This document shows, piece by piece, positions 27,073 to 38,934 of a stretch of DNA of 39,092 nt. A program made the translations under genes and the position numbers. The DNA is taken from NCBI GenBank assembly GCA_021201035.1, contig JAJQFQ010000030.1, positions 1-39,092 of the forward strand. The letters run 5' to 3'. Each line of letters opens with the position of its first letter. Within the stretch, counting starts at the first letter, position 1. The notes beneath the pieces were generated by a model, which did no database searches, was not told the DNA's origin, and saw nothing but the letters and a program-made list of their open reading frames with translations. The stretch is from Clostridiales bacterium. Lineage in GTDB: Bacteria; Bacillota; Clostridia; Lachnospirales; Lachnospiraceae.

Positions 27073-28326
27073 ATGAAACCACACGACTTATTCCTGCAGG
27101 CTCTAACCGCCGCATTAAAAAATGAAGAAGTATCCTGGAGCGAAGAATTGTCTCCGCAGACATGGCTCTCGCTGTTCCGGCTGGCGGAAATGCACCACAT
27201 TCTCCCGATGATCTACGGAGCGGTGTACAGCTGTCCGGCCGCCAAAGAGGCTGACCCGAAGCTCTTTTTTTCATATAAACAGCGTACCATTCAGATGGTT
27301 ACGCTGCAGACCATGAAAACCAGTGAATTCCTCAGTCTTTATCAGAAATTGGCCGATGCCGGGATTGCGCCTCTGGTTGTGAAGGGGCTCATTTGCCGGA
27401 ATCTCTATCCGAATCCGGATGATCGGCTTTCCGGGGATGAAGATATTCTCATACCGGATGGTCAGTTCGCGCTGTTTCACAGAGTTATGACGGAAGACGG
27501 CATGGTATGTGCGGATGCGGAGCTCGACATGGAGCAGGCTTACGAAGTGCCCTACGGGAAGCAGGGCAGTCCCATATACATCGAAGCGCATAAGTCCTTA
27601 TTTCCCCCGGAATCGGAGGCATACGGGGATCTGAATCGTTTCTTTTCGGATATCCGGGAACGGGCGGTCGAAGTGTGCGTTGACGGCACGCCGGTTCTGA
27701 CCATGGGATATACAGACCATTTGTTTTATCTGATCTGCCATGCCTATAAGCACCTGCTGCACAGCGGCGTGGGTATCCGGCAGGTGTGTGATATCGCACT
27801 GTTTGCCAATGCATACGGCCGGGAGGTAGACTGGCAGCTTTTGTTAGACCAATGCCGTGAGATTCGCGCGGATCTGTTCACGGCGGCGCTGTTTCGGATC
27901 GGTCGGAAATACCTGACGTTCGATCCGGTGAAATCCTGTTATCCGGAGGAATGGTCTGAGATAAAAGTGGATGAAACGCTGCTGCTGCAGGATCTCCTGG
28001 ATGCCGGTGTGTATGGCGGCGGGTCGATGAGCCGGAAACACAGCAGCAATATGACGCTGCAGGCGGTCGCCGCGCAAAAACAGGGGAAAAAGGCAGGAAG
28101 CGGTGTGCTGAAATCGTTGTTTCCCACGGCAAAAGCGCTGGAAAAGCGCTATCCTTATCTGAAGAAGAAATCGTTTCTGCTTCCGGTTGCGTGGATCAGC
28201 CGGATATGGAATTACAGAAAAGAAACGGGGGAGGGAAGTCATAATGACGCTTCCGAGAGCATTCGAATCGGGGAGCAGCGTCTGGAACTCATGAAACAGT
28301 ACGGGATTTTAGATTCCGGGAAATAG
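27073..28326 (+). CDS. Nucleotidyltransferase family protein (NTP_transf_5-like)
   Basis: 'LAEMHHILPMIYGAVY...LVVKGLICRNLYPNPDDRLSGDEDILIP...YTDHLFYLICHAYKHLLHSGVGIRQVCDIALFANAYGREVDW'. Confidence 0.82.
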   Translation: MKPHDLFLQALTAALKNEEVSWSEELSPQTWLSLFRLAEMHHILPMIYGAVYSCPAAKEADPKLFFSYKQRTIQMVTLQTMKTSEFLSLYQKLADAGIAPLVVKGLICRNLYPNPDDRLSGDEDILIPDGQFALFHRVMTEDGMVCADAELDMEQAYEVPYGKQGSPIYIEAHKSLFPPESEAYGDLNRFFSDIRERAVEVCVDGTPVLTMGYTDHLFYLICHAYKHLLHSGVGIRQVCDIALFANAYGREVDWQLLLDQCREIRADLFTAALFRIGRKYLTFDPVKSCYPEEWSEIKVDETLLLQDLLDAGVYGGGSMSRKHSSNMTLQAVAAQKQGKKAGSGVLKSLFPTAKALEKRYPYLKKKSFLLPVAWISRIWNYRKETGEGSHNDASESIRIGEQRLELMKQYGILDSGK

Positions 28327-28353
28327 CGTGTGTGCGAAGGAGACCTTTATTTT

Positions 28354-30174
28354 ATGTCAGACAAATCACAGAACCCGGACGACATTGAGGAATTTTCCGG
28401 ACTCAACAGGATATTTAAGTCAAAAGCGGTCCAGTGGGTCATAAACAAGATCGGCGACGGCTCGTTCAGCGAGTTTGTTGACGACTGGAAATGGATTTTT
28501 ATATTCAGCAGAAAATATGCGAAGATGATTGTTTTGTATACCATTCTGGGCGTTTGCAGCTCTACGTTGAGCCTCGTATTCTCCGTGGCGAGCAAGTATA
28601 TGATCGATATTATCACCGGGTTTGATTTCAGCATGCTGTGGTTCCTGGCGCTTGTGATGGTCGGCAGCATGGTGGTCAGTCTGGTGTTTTCCAGTCTGGT
28701 CAATCGTATTTCCGCGAAAATCAGTATTCATGTCAACAATGATATTCAGGCAGAAGTGTTTGATCAGATTGTTGACGCGGACTGGCTGGAACTGAGTAAA
28801 TTTGCGAACGGCGATCTGCTGAACCGGTTTAACAACGACATCAGCACGGTATCGTCGAATGCGGTCAGCTGGCTGCCGAATATCATCGTTGCCGTTTACA
28901 ATTTCATTGCGACGTTCTGCGTGATTTTTTACTATGATGCGACCATGGCCTGGATCGCGCTGTCGTCCGCGCCGTTTCTGCTGATCGCCAGCCGTTTCCT
29001 GATGCGCAAGAATAAGGAATACCGGAAACGTGTGCTGGAGATCAACAGCGGCATGATGGGGTTTGAGTCGGAAACGTTTTACAATATGGATACGATCAAA
29101 TCCTTCGGCGTGGCGGGGCATTACAGCCGGGGACTGCGCCGGTGGCAGGAAAAATACAAAAAGTATAACCTGGACTATAATCTGTTTTCCATAAAAACGA
29201 ATATCGGTATGTCGGTGCTCGGTATGGTTGTGTCTTTCGTGGCGTTCGGATATTGTCTGTTCCGGCTGTGGACAGGCGCGATTACATACGGGACGATGAC
29301 GCTGTTTCTGACGCAGCGTTCCCGGCTGACGACGCAGTTTAACTCGATGGTGAATATCATACCGGGCATGCTGAACAGTGCTATTTCCGCGCATCGGATC
29401 CGGGAGCTGATCGAGCTTCCGCGGGAAAAACATATTCCGAAGGAGTCGGAGGAGATGGCAAAGGCTGCGCGCGATGGTTTCGAGGTGCGGATGACCGGTG
29501 TGAATTTTGCCTATGTGGAAAACAATCAGGTGCTGCGCGATTCTGATTTCACGGCAAAGCCGAATGAGATCGTCGCTCTGATTGGTCCGTCCGGCGAGGG
29601 CAAGACAACAATGATCCGTCTGATGCTCGGGCTGACGCATCCCGGCGACGGCAGCGTGTCACTGGTGGATATGAACGGAAACAAGGTGGAGATTAACGCC
29701 GATACGCGGCGGTATTTTTCCTATGTGCCGCAGGGAAATACAATTCTGTCCGGCACGATTGCCGACAACATGCGCATGGTGAAAGAGGACGCCACGGATG
29801 AGGAGATCATTGAGGCGCTCAAGACGGCCTGCGCCTGGGAGTTTGTCTCGAAATTGGAGCACGGTATTCACGGGAAACTGGGAGAGCGCGGGCGCGGCGT
29901 GTCGGAAGGACAGGCACAGCGGATCGCCATCGCCCGGGCGGTCCTGCGCGACGCACCTGTGCTGCTGCTCGATGAGGCCACGAGCGCGCTGGATGTACAG
30001 ACGGAGCGCCGGGTGCTGCGCAATATTATCCGGCAGCGGCCGAATAAGACGATCATCGTGACCACCCACCGCCCCAGCGTGCTGGATATGTGCCGCAGGG
30101 TGTACCGTGTGATGGATACGAAGCTGACGGAGCTGAGCGAGGAAGAATCGCAGGCGATGGTGAAGGATTTCTGA
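28354..30174 (+). CDS. ABC exporter, fused permease/ATPase (no N-terminal C39 peptidase domain seen)
   Basis: Six-TM-type N-half. 'ALIGPSGEGKTTMIRLMLGLTHPGDG', 'FSYVPQGNTILSGTIADNM', 'VSEGQAQRIAIARAVLRDAPVLLLDEATSALD'. Confidence 0.92.
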   Translation: MSDKSQNPDDIEEFSGLNRIFKSKAVQWVINKIGDGSFSEFVDDWKWIFIFSRKYAKMIVLYTILGVCSSTLSLVFSVASKYMIDIITGFDFSMLWFLALVMVGSMVVSLVFSSLVNRISAKISIHVNNDIQAEVFDQIVDADWLELSKFANGDLLNRFNNDISTVSSNAVSWLPNIIVAVYNFIATFCVIFYYDATMAWIALSSAPFLLIASRFLMRKNKEYRKRVLEINSGMMGFESETFYNMDTIKSFGVAGHYSRGLRRWQEKYKKYNLDYNLFSIKTNIGMSVLGMVVSFVAFGYCLFRLWTGAITYGTMTLFLTQRSRLTTQFNSMVNIIPGMLNSAISAHRIRELIELPREKHIPKESEEMAKAARDGFEVRMTGVNFAYVENNQVLRDSDFTAKPNEIVALIGPSGEGKTTMIRLMLGLTHPGDGSVSLVDMNGNKVEINADTRRYFSYVPQGNTILSGTIADNMRMVKEDATDEEIIEALKTACAWEFVSKLEHGIHGKLGERGRGVSEGQAQRIAIARAVLRDAPVLLLDEATSALDVQTERRVLRNIIRQRPNKTIIVTTHRPSVLDMCRRVYRVMDTKLTELSEEESQAMVKDF

Positions 30175-30230
30175 TCATTTGTGTCAGGGTTCGATATCCT
30201 GATATCAGATATTTAACGGAGAGCGGGAAG

Positions 30231-30707
30231 ATGGAGAGTATCATTGAACAGCGGGAGGACATCCGCAGGGTAGACAATCAGGAGTATCTCGGCATGCTGA
30301 AGGGATTGATTCTGGATGGGAAAGATGTGTCCCTTCTTGTGAGCGGCAGCAGTATGAGTCCGTTTATCATTCACCAGCGGGATTCCGTGATTCTGGCTCC
30401 GGTCAGAGAACCTTTGAAAAAAGGAGATATCGTTTTCTATCAGAGGGAAAACGCGGACTATGTTCTGCACCGGATCCGCCGTGTTCATGCGGACGGCACA
30501 TATGATATCATCGGGGATGCGCAGATTGAGATAGAACCCGGTGTGAGACGGGAGCAGATATTTGCCGTTGTCACGATGGTGTGCAGGAAGGGGCGCGATA
30601 TTCGCCCCGGTGATTTCTGGTGGTTTTTTTTCGCACGGGTGTGGCTGCGGATCATTCCGTTGCGTCATTTTGTCATGTGTGTTTATGGTTTCCTGAGGAT
30701 GCGGTGA
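30231..30707 (+). CDS. S24/S26-like signal peptidase family protein (Ser-His type)
   Basis: 'LLVSGSSMSPFIIHQRDSVILAP...LKKGDIVFYQRENADYVLHRIRRVHADGTYDIIGDAQIEIEPGV'. The catalytic-Ser box SGSSM and His in 'VLHRI' replace the bacterial SPase Lys. Confidence 0.82.
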   Translation: MESIIEQREDIRRVDNQEYLGMLKGLILDGKDVSLLVSGSSMSPFIIHQRDSVILAPVREPLKKGDIVFYQRENADYVLHRIRRVHADGTYDIIGDAQIEIEPGVRREQIFAVVTMVCRKGRDIRPGDFWWFFFARVWLRIIPLRHFVMCVYGFLRMR

Positions 30708-30726: not shown

Positions 30727-32310
30727 TTACCGGAACCTCTCAATGATGCAGGTATGCTTTTTCCCTTTGTCATTTTTGTTATAATTGATGCCGACAAGCA
30801 GAAGATTATCTGTATATTTTTGCAGGGCGCCGTCATATCGCCTGTCGCGGATCTGCCGGATGGCGCCGTCCGCCGTCTGATTATACTTCAGTTCAATCAG
30901 AAGCGCCGGTTTATCCACATGAGGCGCGGGGATGAATGCAAGATCGGCAAACCCTTTCCCTGACGGAAACTCACGGACAATCGTATAATAATTGCGTGCT
31001 GTGTAGTAGGCCAGCGTGACCGCGCAGCTCAGAGAATTCTCGTCGTTGTACTGTAATACAGAAACATTCAGGTCGTGAACTCGTTCCAAAGCTGTTTCCA
31101 CGGCCGCACTGTCTTCGTTGATGGTTGCCTGCAGAAGATCTTCGGATGATGCGAGTGCAGAGGCGATTTCTTCCCAACCGTCTCCTTCAACCGCGTTCTG
31201 AAAAGCCCCGGCAATCTCCAGATTGGGAATATACACCTGTCCGTTTTTTTCATGATATCCCAGATAGCCCAGATGGATCAGCAGGGTCAGTACATCATCT
31301 TTGCTGTTGAAGGATGTAATATCATTCTGAAAACGTGCAATCTCAATTTTGATTTTCCCGCCTCCCAGCATGGCAACAATGGCGTCTTTTAATCCGTCAA
31401 AGTTCATGCTGATATAGCTTTTCAGGGATTCATATGTCTCAGAACCGGTCCAGTAATTTCGAAAACGCTTCCTTTTCACCGCTGACATCACGGAATCAGG
31501 GCTGTACACACAACCGTGATCTTCAAAAGAATATCCGTCATACCAGCGTTTCATTTTTTCAAAATCAACTTCATTTTCCAGGCATAAATCCCTGACTTCT
31601 TCCTCCGTGAAACCGACGTACTCTGAGAGCATATCCGGGTTGGTCATGGAATATTCTTCGAAATCAGTCAGTGCAGACTCTGTGCCGTATTTTTTAATCG
31701 GCAGAATGCCGGTCATATATGCGCCTGCGAGCGCAGACTTCATGGACGGCCCACCTTTAAAAAGACCTCTTAAAAACCGCAGATAAGATTTCTGCAGTTC
31801 GTCGTTATGCTTCACTTCGCGAAACAGGGCATCCCATTCATCTATGATGAGGAAAAACTTTTCATTCGTCCTTCGGCTCACGTTCAGTATGGCGTTGGCA
31901 AGGATCGTTTCGTCCGCTTTCACATAATCGGGAAATGCCTCCCGAAGCTCTTCGATTACAGATCTCTGAATAACGGAAAGGACATCACAGATATCGTCTG
32001 TCACAGAGATAAACCATGTGATATCCAGATAAATCACATCAAATGCATTCAGATACTTTTTATAAGAATGGCGGTGTGAAATCTCCAGCCCGTCAAATAA
32101 TTCTCCGGAATCACAGCTCTTGTCATAATATGCTGCCAGCATGGCCGCAGCGAACGATTTCCCAAAACGACGGGGACGGCTAAAGCAGGTCAGACTGCGG
32201 GCGGTATCAATCGTCTGGTTGATATAATCAATCAGACCGGTCTTGTCAACGTAAGTTCCGTTTCGGATCTGACGGAATGCTTCATTTCCGCAATTGAGAT
32301 ACATGCCCAT
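30727..32310 (-). CDS. AAA-ATPase-like / PD-(D/E)XK nuclease superfamily protein
   Basis: 'RQIRNGTYVDKTGLIDYINQTIDTARSLTCFSRPRRFGKSFAAAMLAAYYD' at the N-terminus. C-terminus 'FPSGKGFADLAFIPAPHVDKPALLIELKYNQTADGAIRQIRDRRY'. Strong aggagg RBS upstream. Confidence 0.92.
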   Translation of the reverse strand: MGMYLNCGNEAFRQIRNGTYVDKTGLIDYINQTIDTARSLTCFSRPRRFGKSFAAAMLAAYYDKSCDSGELFDGLEISHRHSYKKYLNAFDVIYLDITWFISVTDDICDVLSVIQRSVIEELREAFPDYVKADETILANAILNVSRRTNEKFFLIIDEWDALFREVKHNDELQKSYLRFLRGLFKGGPSMKSALAGAYMTGILPIKKYGTESALTDFEEYSMTNPDMLSEYVGFTEEEVRDLCLENEVDFEKMKRWYDGYSFEDHGCVYSPDSVMSAVKRKRFRNYWTGSETYESLKSYISMNFDGLKDAIVAMLGGGKIKIEIARFQNDITSFNSKDDVLTLLIHLGYLGYHEKNGQVYIPNLEIAGAFQNAVEGDGWEEIASALASSEDLLQATINEDSAAVETALERVHDLNVSVLQYNDENSLSCAVTLAYYTARNYYTIVREFPSGKGFADLAFIPAPHVDKPALLIELKYNQTADGAIRQIRDRRYDGALQKYTDNLLLVGINYNKNDKGKKHTCIIERFR

Positions 32311-32665: not shown

Positions 32666-32770
32666 TACATTGTAATGTTTTGAGTGAGAGTGGACTTGTA
32701 TAAGGCAGTGAAATGCTTTAAGAAAGCCAGATGATTTATGCTTCGCGGAAGCAGCAGAAAGGCAGAACCG

Positions 32771-33058
32771 ATGGACAATACAACACGATTTCAGAGAAAT
32801 CCGGATTATATTTTCAGAAATATAGTTGGTGAGGCTGTTCTGGTTCCTACAGGTAAGGCGTGTCAGGATTTTAACGGAATGGCGACTATGAACGGCACGG
32901 GGGTTTTCCTCTGGGAATTGCTGGAAAAGGAGAGGACATTGTCTGAACTGAGTCAGTGTCTGGCTGAAAAGTATGATCTGGATGTAAAACAATGTATGGA
33001 GGATGCTGCGGAATTCCTGAAGGAAGCACAGGAAAAACATGTTGTCATACAGTGTTGA
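32771..33058 (+). CDS. PqqD family protein (RiPP recognition element-like)
   Basis: 'NPDYIFRNIVGEAVLVPTGKACQDFNGMATMNGTGVFLWELLEKERTLSELSQCLAEKYDLDVKQCMEDAAEFLKEAQEK'. ORF track start 32738 sits in a hairpin; ATG 32771 is preferred. Confidence 0.9.
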   Translation: MDNTTRFQRNPDYIFRNIVGEAVLVPTGKACQDFNGMATMNGTGVFLWELLEKERTLSELSQCLAEKYDLDVKQCMEDAAEFLKEAQEKHVVIQC

Positions 33059-36100: not shown

Positions 36101-36519
36101 AAATAAATGCTGCTTCTGACCTTTATTATGAGATTACTCCGAACAGCAATGGCTACATCATGGTGAAGAACACCGGTACAAATCTGCTTTCCATCACCAA
36201 ACTGCGCACTACGACCACTACTGCCTCCGCTTCTGATGGCATTTCAACAGCAAGTTTGGATGAGCTGGTTGCTTATGCCAACAGCTTTAGCCTGTTAAGT
36301 ACAGTTTCTTATACAGATGATGCTGTTACGGAGGAGGAATTGGAAGGCAATACAGAAACCGGAGATGTGATTGAAGATTTGGATGAGGATGATATTGTTA
36401 TCGACAATCCGACAGAAGATACAGAGAATCAGCAGGAAGAGGAGACAGATAACAGTCAGCAATCCATTTTCAGCAGTTTGCTTAGCAGCATTCGCAACTG
36501 GTTTAATAAAAGGAGATGA
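33142..36519 (+). CDS. Large secreted VWA-domain protein with signal peptide, no LPXTG motif seen
   Basis: 'MRMKKKIPKRVLAMFLSLALVLALVPAAASFAA' signal peptide. MIDAS 'PLDIVMVIDESGSMTYP', 'RIVVLFTDGETNSD', 'GADIFCVGFGD'. C-terminus acidic, then SSLLSSIRNWFNKRR. Confidence 0.88.
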   Translation: MRMKKKIPKRVLAMFLSLALVLALVPAAASFAADEESGDSGETTTSGIELSKTATLEDDGTYTINLEAYATGTTATSTTSESVPLDIVMVIDESGSMTYPTGDAIKLSNADTTNGAEEGYYVYEVTTSSTGFNGQTTTTTTYYKVRYYNGNWQYYKDTTSGQGMQQNTTYTWTDFSDQSSTTVYRTRLSVLKEAATQFVNSIADDAKTTGMDHRISIVGYAGDSSSTGNQSSESYRITSNGSSTGSYLDTGLFIGADGKMTNYSTSLGTDTYYSSLVYAYDTTNSKVNGNLTAAIDNFACNGGTYTEYGLLMAQKVFDSIDYNETDTYTKQDGTTAGRERIVVLFTDGETNSDISTVLGYSNTLKKSTSDKGYGADIFCVGFGDSTSEDFLTHISSNYSTDASYSSGNQGGGPGGQGGSSQAGYGGTSVATGYYMTADSLDALKNVFSTITSTITTPTTSVTLGADAVMKDIMGDGFTLTDDSKVTIKTVGGTSDGTTITWGDETTNNASYKISEDNTTVSVTGFDYADKYISSGHAGEKLCVTITGVLPTDAAVTGEEVNTNKATSGIYATAEAEEATATFNQPQTILTKKAYVLDYAKMATLTDLDQNTSVTSIVNEIKDLTGVNNDLSQTYGNLALDLDNNIVTYTPKTTLWDGYDSFYVFGKTDSETITSYSANSNGNLWSKVSVIPANNVYYEDDFVTTYTDDTETETATVGIVYSKGNWSVVGESAGNTETANGGTYGYGWEESLANDITYSDGSAYASGTYGATAEFTFTGTGVDIYSRTNMESGMLIVKLTSKTTEKSQGLIINGLAESGDYYQIPTASFNNLDYDTYTVTLTVMSDGTDVYTYYLDGIRVYNPLGTVTEENGDAYDAYAADNELNAVFTEVRDLLITANTFDASSSNTVTGPVFIDEVDDETGVPTCDIATYKTYGPENEVYLAADQAIVFKVDPSGSYTYYLGLKAPAGSTIASVTNGNEENAANIEINAASDLYYEITPNSNGYIMVKNTGTNLLSITKLRTTTTTASASDGISTASLDELVAYANSFSLLSTVSYTDDAVTEEELEGNTETGDVIEDLDEDDIVIDNPTEDTENQQEEETDNSQQSIFSSLLSSIRNWFNKRR

Positions 36520-36524
36520 GAGTA

Positions 36525-36782
36525 TTGAAAGTTAATTATGAAAAGCCTGTTATTATATTTGAAACCTTTGCGTTGAGTCAAACTATTGCTCAAGACTGCG
36601 GAGAGTCAGCAATTGGAAATACGAATCATTACAGTAAGAGTTCGTGCGGTTATTATGTGGGAGATGGGACTGTTTGGACATCAGACAATTTAGGGTGTGG
36701 TGTTGCATGGCCTGAGGATATAGCTGTAAACGGATATTGTTACAATAATCCTGACGGCGGCATCAGTGTTTTCAGTTCCTGA
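36525..36782 (+). CDS. Candidate modified-peptide precursor, 85 aa, four Cys, C-terminal Ser
   Basis: MKVNYEKPVIIFETFALSQTIAQDCGESAIGNTNHYSKSSCGYYVGDGTVWTSDNLGCGVAWPEDIAVNGYCYNNPDGGISVFSS. TTG 36525 lies 9 nt after AGGAG, whereas ATG 36516 directly abuts it. Lies between the PqqD/VWA genes and the HprK-like/rSAM genes. Confidence 0.7.
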   Translation: MKVNYEKPVIIFETFALSQTIAQDCGESAIGNTNHYSKSSCGYYVGDGTVWTSDNLGCGVAWPEDIAVNGYCYNNPDGGISVFSS

Positions 36783-36824
36783 TGAGAGCATATGAAGTCG
36801 CGGAAGTGACGATATAACGTTGGG

Positions 36825-36855
36825 GCGGTTGGGTGAAAGCCCGACCGCCTTCTTC
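36825..36855 (+). terminator. Intrinsic terminator/attenuator downstream of the peptide gene
   Basis: ggcggttgg-gtgaaag-ccgaccgcc (9-bp stem, one G-U) followed by ttcttct. Confidence 0.6.
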
Positions 36856-37787: not shown

Positions 37788-37791
37788 TGAG

Positions 37792-38934
37792 ATGAAAACG
37801 AAATATGTGGAAGCGCCCATCACGGAATACCTGCATCGGAAAGCTTCAAAGCTCCTGACCCCCTTAAGCGGCACCTTCGAACTGACGCCGGTCTGCAACA
37901 TGAGCCGCCGGATGTGTTATGTGCGCATGACGCGCGAGGAGCAGGAGTCAGTCCGGCCGCTCCGAACAGCCGAAGAATGGATCCGTCTGGGTGAGACGGC
38001 GAAGGAGCGGGGGATGCTTTACCTTCTCCTGACCGGCGGAGAGCCGTTTTCCCGGCCGGATTTCCGGGAGATCATGGAAGCTCTTCATCAGATGGGGCTG
38101 CTGATTTCCGTCAATTCCAACGCAACGCTGGTCACGCAGGAGACCGTGACGTGGCTGCGGAAGGTGCCGCCCACGCGGATGAATATCACGCTGTACGGCG
38201 CGTCGAATGAGACGTATGCCCGTCTTTGCGGCAATCCGGAGGGATTTTCGCAGGTGACGGGAGCGATTCGCCTTTTAAAAGAAGCGGGCATCCCCATCAA
38301 GATCAACTGCAGCGTCACACCGTACAATGCCGCTGATCTGGAGGACATATTTTCCTTCTGTGAAAAAGAGGAGCTGATCGTGCAGGCGACAAGTTATATG
38401 TTCCCTCCCCTTCGCCGGGATGCCTCTATGGTGGGGAAAAACGAGCGCTTTTCCCCGGAGGAGGCGGCAGAGTATTCTGCAAAGATTGAATACCTCTCCA
38501 ACGGGCGGGAGCGTTTTATGGAGCATGTGGCTGATAACAACCTTGGCGGGCTTCCGACAGATCAGGACAGTGACTGTCAGGAGATCGAGGGCGAGGGCAT
38601 CCACTGCCGTGCCGGGAAATGCAGCTTCTGGGTGACATGGGACGGCCGTTTTCTGCCCTGCGGGATGCTGCCGGGAAAGCACAACGCGGATGTGTTTGAA
38701 GTCGGTTTTGACAAAGCCTGGCAGCTGGCGACAGAGGAGGCGGCGGCGATCCGCCTGCCGGCCGGATGTACCAATTGCAGGAACAAAGATAACTGCCGCC
38801 CGTGTGCGGCTTCCGTGCTGACGGAGACGGGGACCTATCATAACGTACCGGAATACCGCTGCCGGATGGCAGAGGCTTATCCGGAGGCGGCCAGACAGCT
38901 GGTAGATCAGCTGCGCCGGGAGAATGTCGGATGA
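37792..38934 (+). CDS. Radical SAM/SPASM domain protein with a disrupted CX3CX2C motif
   Basis: 'FELTPVCNMSRRMCYVRMTREEQ', 'LYLLLTGGEPFSRPDF', SPASM 'CSFWVTWDGRFLPCGMLPG...GCTNCRNKDNCRPCAAS'. Start refined to ATG 37792. Confidence 0.9.
   Translation: MKTKYVEAPITEYLHRKASKLLTPLSGTFELTPVCNMSRRMCYVRMTREEQESVRPLRTAEEWIRLGETAKERGMLYLLLTGGEPFSRPDFREIMEALHQMGLLISVNSNATLVTQETVTWLRKVPPTRMNITLYGASNETYARLCGNPEGFSQVTGAIRLLKEAGIPIKINCSVTPYNAADLEDIFSFCEKEELIVQATSYMFPPLRRDASMVGKNERFSPEEAAEYSAKIEYLSNGRERFMEHVADNNLGGLPTDQDSDCQEIEGEGIHCRAGKCSFWVTWDGRFLPCGMLPGKHNADVFEVGFDKAWQLATEEAAAIRLPAGCTNCRNKDNCRPCAASVLTETGTYHNVPEYRCRMAEAYPEAARQLVDQLRRENVG

Follow-up and report, generated by a model that had tools for sequence, protein, structure and literature searches.

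Organization of the locus

The stretch of DNA analyzed here (39,092 nt, hereafter the window) belongs to a 2.44-Mb draft genome assembled in 235 contigs. Its first 27 kb are occupied by an exopolysaccharide gene cluster, which includes a gene for a polysaccharide-type tyrosine kinase whose C-terminal tail is a Gly-Tyr repeat (positions 418-2016). The genes that concern us occupy the remainder of the window (Table 1). They are split into two halves by an unrelated ATPase-like gene on the opposite strand, a homologue of which, 33% identical, is present in a related locus (L036). A block consisting of a large secreted protein, a short peptide, an HPr-kinase-like protein and a radical SAM protein is repeated in relatives, and the peptide gene is followed by the kinase and radical SAM genes in nearly every locus where the contig has room; NTP_transf_5, S26, ABC and PqqD genes recur near the block in varying order. 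No C39 peptidase domain was found in the ABC exporter of the window.

Table 1. Genes and other features at the peptide locus (window coordinates)
Feature	Position	Strand	Remarks
NTP_transf_5 (PF14907) protein	27073..28326	+	Proposed phosphoserine modifier, after the lasso N enzyme
ABC exporter	28330..30174	+	Membrane and ATPase domains
S24/S26-type (signal-peptidase-like) peptidase	30216..30707	+	Candidate leader peptidase
ATPase-like gene	30727..32310	-	Unrelated to the cluster
PqqD family protein	32738..33058	+	RiPP recognition element that likely binds the leader
Large secreted protein, 1125 aa	33142..36519	+	Stop 6 nt before the peptide start
Ribosome-binding site AAGGAG	36510..36515	+	9 nt before the TTG; overlaps the end of the upstream gene
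Putative precursor peptide, 85 aa, TTG start	36525..36782	+	Reads MKVNYEKPVIIFETFALSQTIAQDCGESAIG...NGYCYNNPDGGISVFSS
Predicted peptide leader, about residues 1-24			YEKPVIIFETF...TIAQD; core holds C25, C41, C58, C72 and the C-terminal Ser85
GC-rich hairpin, then T-rich stretch	36822..36851	+	Between the peptide and kinase genes
HPr-kinase-like protein, 305 aa	36870..37787	+	His137, GKSTQA and NGDR intact; proposed C-terminal Ser kinase
Radical SAM/SPASM protein	37789..38934	+	SPASM Cys all kept; CX3CX2C reads CNMSRRMC

Translation of the short ORF agrees with an earlier note on this DNA, which had described an 85-residue product with four Cys and a terminal Ser. The note had also preferred a TTG start with a well-spaced ribosome-binding site to the called ATG. 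The AAGGAG directly abuts the alternative ATG at 36516 and stands at a proper distance from the TTG at 36525, and the peptide homologues align starting at M(K/T)xxYxKP, so that TTG is indeed the better start. Its statements that the product lacks a signal peptide and matches no recognizable bacteriocin family likewise stand, since no hydrophobic signal-peptide segment is visible in the 85 residues and no Pfam, NCBIfam or PHROGs model matches; nor was any PDB relative of the peptide found.

A conserved family of four-cysteine peptides

Eighteen homologues of the peptide were found, one of them partial (L034), with a patchy spread within the same bacterial family. When 299 genomes of that family were searched at the protein level, clear relatives appeared in several genera, some genomes having two copies, and a scan of contigs with the neighbouring radical SAM protein yielded five further loci in Clostridiales/Bacillota metagenome-assembled genomes. 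At the level of the order, a profile search matched in 3 of 392 genomes, all three from the same bacterial family; a search for relatives in viral contigs found none. Sixteen full-length homologues show 30-58% identity. Eight columns are invariant among the 17 full-length sequences aligned (Y5, P8, E13, F15, C41, C72, F83 and S85), all of which have in common a YxxPx[ILVM]xxxExF leader motif, an IA..C junction and four Cys, a few carrying one extra; the C terminus reads F[SNAG]S in each except one, which ends FSST. The pN/pS of the peptide gene, calculated among closer relatives, is 0.2-0.6, indicating that the reading frame is under purifying selection.

An ORF this short, starting at TTG and matching no Pfam, NCBIfam or PHROG model, could in principle be a chance frame or a remnant, a view that is hardly credible here given the conserved family, the purifying selection and the conserved operon position; the homologues refute it. 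Conservation of both leader and core positions supports instead the leader-plus-core precursor proposed in the earlier note. Of the features whose conservation the note had suggested checking, the four Cys are kept throughout the family, and so is the terminal Ser except in the member ending FSST; the similar ORFs that it placed in gut Firmicutes have their counterpart in the homologues of the same bacterial family, and these homologues adjoin PqqD, kinase and radical SAM genes rather than lying away from them. The note made no mention of the HPr-kinase-like gene, of the large secreted protein encoded just upstream, of the hairpin behind the peptide gene or of the Cys-to-Arg change in the radical SAM protein. 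A related family of longer peptides (127-137 aa; L064, L068, L070, L144 and L043:16056-16442) has an EYVAAC junction and ends in KS or AS; genes of the same radical SAM clade adjoin it, usually together with kinase and PqqD genes.

Coupling to large secreted proteins

The protein encoded immediately upstream of the peptide has a signal peptide, a von Willebrand A domain, an acidic linker and a C-terminal amphipathic tail, SSLLSSIRNWFNKRR. In 11 relatives as well as in the window, the peptide start lies 0-24 nt from the end of a gene for a large secreted protein (1100-3300 aa), the spacing being counted wherever the contig has room. In L045 and L047, both more distant members, the gene upstream is a different one encoding 250 aa. 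These large proteins have a signal peptide wherever the protein start lies on the contig, and most of them end in a short amphipathic tail, for example SSIRNWFNKRR or KNIFGRWF. The overlap of the ribosome-binding site with the end of the large-protein gene makes translational coupling with the peptide likely.

Six of the large proteins (those of the window, L031, L032, L037, L041 and L043) differ in architecture and have in common an acidic or Pro-rich linker as well as the C-terminal amphipathic tail (IRNWFNGRR, LNKWFASR, IFGRWF), which is possibly a new surface-association signal. An AlphaFold model of the C-terminal part of the window protein was too poor to use (pLDDT 39). We set aside a likeness between the end of the window peptide (SVFSS) and the tail of the secreted protein (SIFSS), as it fails in more distant loci and is probably due to chance.

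The strict pairing and probable translational coupling with the large protein raise the question of whether the peptide is simply a small accessory protein of the latter and no RiPP, its Cys forming disulfides or binding metal and the neighbouring enzymes modifying the large protein or something else; a core of 60 residues is also long for a small RiPP. We consider this very unlikely. The peptide has no signal peptide, its leader-type motif matches the YxxPxL of lasso precursors, and the peptide family is accompanied by PqqD, radical SAM, kinase and ABC genes. Moreover, in three related loci (L064, L068, L070) the peptide and toolkit are present without a large secreted gene directly upstream.

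Downstream of the peptide gene, the window has a hairpin, GGGGCGGTTGGG-TGAA-AGCCCGACCGCCTT, followed by a T-rich run, in a region that folds 5.5 standard deviations better than its shuffles. A strong hairpin stands at the same place in all seven relatives that were folded, making 8/8 with the window, and the sequences differ; that of L035 is little better than its own shuffles. This hairpin is probably an attenuator or a 3' stabilizer that would let the peptide outnumber its enzymes, such being the usual arrangement in RiPP operons for expressing the precursor gene above its enzymes.

The HPr-kinase-like protein and the C-terminal serine

No Pfam family matches the kinase-like protein. Its structural model (mean pLDDT 77) matches PEP carboxykinase (E 5e-7) and HPr kinase/phosphatase (E 2e-4), two enzymes that share a fold, and the best PDB sequences for the family profile are HPr kinases, with a weak score (E 0.011). 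His137, GKSTQA and NGDR are kept in 18 of 18 kinase-like proteins, the His, GK[ST] and Asp being all kept in a wider kinase set, and all but one of the conserved positions are intact in the window protein. In the lasso kinase BsfK, the His, the P-loop and the last Asp have been shown to matter (PMC10368454); each of these corresponds in the window protein, whereas the first Asp of the DD pair of BsfK is a Gly.

The survey covered ninety-seven loci, either kinase-containing or belonging to the peptide family. Ser is the last residue in 17 of the 18 full members of the peptide family and in the partial L034, as well as in 13 of 14 other peptides encoded beside related radical SAM genes (e.g. ...WETAKS, ...NPNAS, ...SNYFQS, ...KAFTS and ...GTLMIS), whose leaders are alike and whose cores are quite different; a kinase gene accompanies thirteen of these fourteen, none being visible on the L144 contig. 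The total is thus 31 of 33, the exceptions being a family member whose FSS is followed by a final Thr and a related peptide with a terminal Trp. None of the ten loci of a comparison set, nine of which have a distinct kinase clade, encodes a peptide ending in Ser, and most of these peptides carry a GQGW-like motif. The base rate of Ser as the last residue of large ORFs in the same loci is 6%. Mapped onto the kinase tree, the Ser label requires 4 changes; shuffled labels require 10.8 on average and never so few in 500 shuffles. Because the peptides share ancestry, these Ser statistics overstate independence, and the p-values of the base-rate comparison, in which related sequences are treated as independent, are not to be taken at face value. 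One Ser-ending peptide (L093) lies beside a kinase on a long branch outside the main group. Terminal Ser is coupled to the kinase clade, and the presence of an HPr-kinase-like gene beside the peptide points to a probable role for this residue.

Two sets of loci with HPr-kinase-like genes also stood out. In seven loci (L080, L081, L082, L084, L085, L089 and L092), radical SAM and HPr-kinase-like genes accompany peptides of another family, which carry a G[FY][TSI]G[QIV][GS]W-like motif, have a Cys close to the C terminus and end in a residue other than Ser. Six others (L104, L107, L113, L118, L126 and L129) encode HPr-kinase-like proteins, several of which also match the PqqD profile within a single ORF; the peptides nearby have a YxxP-[...]-AEGVYxASG leader, and no radical SAM gene lies within the stretch retrieved around them.

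The peptide could be a RiPP whose terminal Ser serves as a recognition tag for another step, such as export or tail processing, with the HPr-like protein acting elsewhere, for instance on an internal residue. BsfK provides a precedent, in that it phosphorylates the internal Ser3 and not the C terminus (PMC10368454), and a related kinase clade adjoins peptides that do not end in Ser. We nevertheless regard a tag as unlikely: BsfA itself ends in Asp, and terminal Ser tracks the kinase clade even where the peptide cores are otherwise unrelated. Phosphorylation of the terminal Ser is the activity that we would propose for the kinase-like enzyme.

The radical SAM/SPASM enzyme

Neither the radical SAM protein nor the peptide reached the cut-off of a curated family model. 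The closest solved PDB structure to the radical SAM profile is that of SkfB, a sactionine-forming enzyme. Thirty-three members of the radical SAM clade are present in the 299 same-family genomes, and an HPr-kinase-like gene lies near 31 of them, one of the two exceptions being near a contig end.

The window copy keeps the seven C-terminal SPASM/auxiliary Cys, and the second Cys of its CX3CX2C motif is replaced by Arg40 (codon CGC, 37906-37908, where the five nearest relatives have TGC). The motif is intact in 30 relatives. On the strength of this replacement, the window enzyme is predicted to be inactive unless the base is wrong, and may represent either a recent inactivation or a base error. 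It is a serious prospect, although less likely than not, that the system is decaying in this genome, the peptide being encoded and yet not cross-linked because its radical SAM enzyme is one cluster Cys short. Among 36 columns that do not vary in 24 relatives, the window protein deviates at residue 40 alone; this singularity fits a loss, but a fragmented draft genome may also contain a single-base assembly error, and all other conserved positions of the radical SAM protein and peptide, and all but one of those of the kinase, are intact. It is from the intact enzymes of the relatives that we infer radical chemistry at the level of the family.

Proposed biosynthesis and role

Taken together, these observations make it probable that the ORF encodes a radical-SAM RiPP precursor with a lasso-type C-terminal Ser module, its gene being coupled to that of a giant secreted protein. 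Genomics shows the genes and their conservation, and the chemistry, namely cross-linking, phosphorylation and perhaps glycosylation, is deduced from these. In the proposed pathway, the PqqD protein would bind the YxxPx[ILVM] leader and the radical SAM/SPASM enzyme would install cross-links in the four-Cys core, at least in relatives, as the window copy may be dead. The HPr-kinase-like enzyme would then phosphorylate the C-terminal Ser, to the phosphate of which the NTP_transf_5 protein would perhaps add a sugar or similar group. The S24/S26 peptidase would remove the leader, probably near the IA..C junction, and the ABC transporter would export the product.

Being presumably co-made with the large secreted protein, the peptide most likely has its site of action in the extracellular space, jointly with or alongside it; the tight genetic coupling of the two makes such an extracellular role our leading guess. 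A more specific and rather speculative version, which we hold to be unlikely, is that the peptide is the partner of the giant protein and not a diffusible antibiotic: a cross-linked mini-protein whose C-terminal phosphoserine would be sugar-decorated or would attach the peptide, or through it the large protein, to the cell surface. Were this the case, a RiPP would be among the structural components of a surface assembly in bacteria. The radical-SAM RiPP reading connects giant secreted proteins with a RiPP family, and few RiPPs are known to have such a role; it also designates the last Ser as a directly testable site. By their sequence pattern (YxxPx[ILVM] leader, four Cys, F-x-Ser end, downstream kinase and radical SAM genes) such precursors can be recognized even though no curated model exists.

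Comparison with known systems

As in RiPPs generally, a short ORF with a conserved leader and core lies beside modification genes. The combination of radical SAM, HPr kinase and PqqD genes returned nothing specific in the literature searched, which made no mention of PF14907 or SynChlorMet either, and that of the peptide with a giant secreted protein is described neither in family libraries nor in the papers searched. The SynChlorMet cassette has the same trio of gene types (ScmC kinase-like, ScmD PqqD-like, ScmE/F radical SAM), and weak similarity relates the kinase to ScmC (E 8e-5) and the radical SAM protein to ScmE (E 2e-19); all matches to the ScmC/D/E/F models fall far below curated cut-offs (22/125 bits, 70/400 bits), and the precursor is different as far as known.

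Radical-SAM thioether RiPPs (sactipeptides, ranthipeptides, SCIFF) resemble our system in their Cys-rich core, SPASM radical SAM enzyme and PqqD-like protein. As expected of sactipeptides and ranthipeptides, a SPASM radical SAM gene adjoins a Cys-rich precursor, and the intact CX3CX2C of this class is found in the 30 relatives but not in the window copy. In contrast, a kinase and an NTP_transf_5 protein are not part of the defined thioether systems.

The closest parallels to the latter two genes are found among phosphorylated and phosphoglycosylated lasso peptides (paeninodin, pseudomycoidin), with which the cluster shares an HPr-kinase-like K protein, a nucleotidyltransferase N, a PqqD-type protein, an ABC exporter, a YxxPx[IL] leader motif and a C-terminal Ser. 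Lasso precursors receive a phosphate on their C-terminal Ser from HPr-kinase homologues, and the nucleotidyltransferase puts one or two hexoses on that phosphate (PMC8498205); the His, P-loop GKS/T and catalytic Asp of lasso kinases are all present in the window protein. The YxxPxL motif is conserved in the leaders of lasso precursors from Bradymonadales bacteria (PMC10368454). In the rumen, lasso clusters from Butyrivibrio and Lachnospira frequently include genes for HPr kinase, PqqD and a nucleotidyltransferase, and a Ser is conserved within the C-terminal region of most candidates (PMC7533575). A lasso cluster on a Butyrivibrio plasmid matches the window NTP_transf_5 protein (E 3e-46) and, weakly, the kinase (E 1e-9); the precursor beside its kinase and NTP_transf_5 genes ends in Arg, not Ser. 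A lasso-peptide assignment was rejected because neither an asparagine-synthetase-like cyclase nor a B2 transglutaminase-like protease is encoded among the cluster genes scanned (NTP_transf_5, ABC, S24/S26, PqqD, VWA, kinase-like and radical SAM). Unlike lasso systems, the cluster has a radical SAM/SPASM enzyme, a long four-Cys core, an S24/S26 peptidase and a large secreted protein gene directly upstream. Our best reading of the sequences is that the peptides would form a new RiPP family, belonging to neither the lasso nor the defined radical-SAM families, which predicts that the kinase and nucleotidyltransferase tailoring of lasso peptides is a portable module, used as well by radical-SAM peptides in anaerobic Clostridia.
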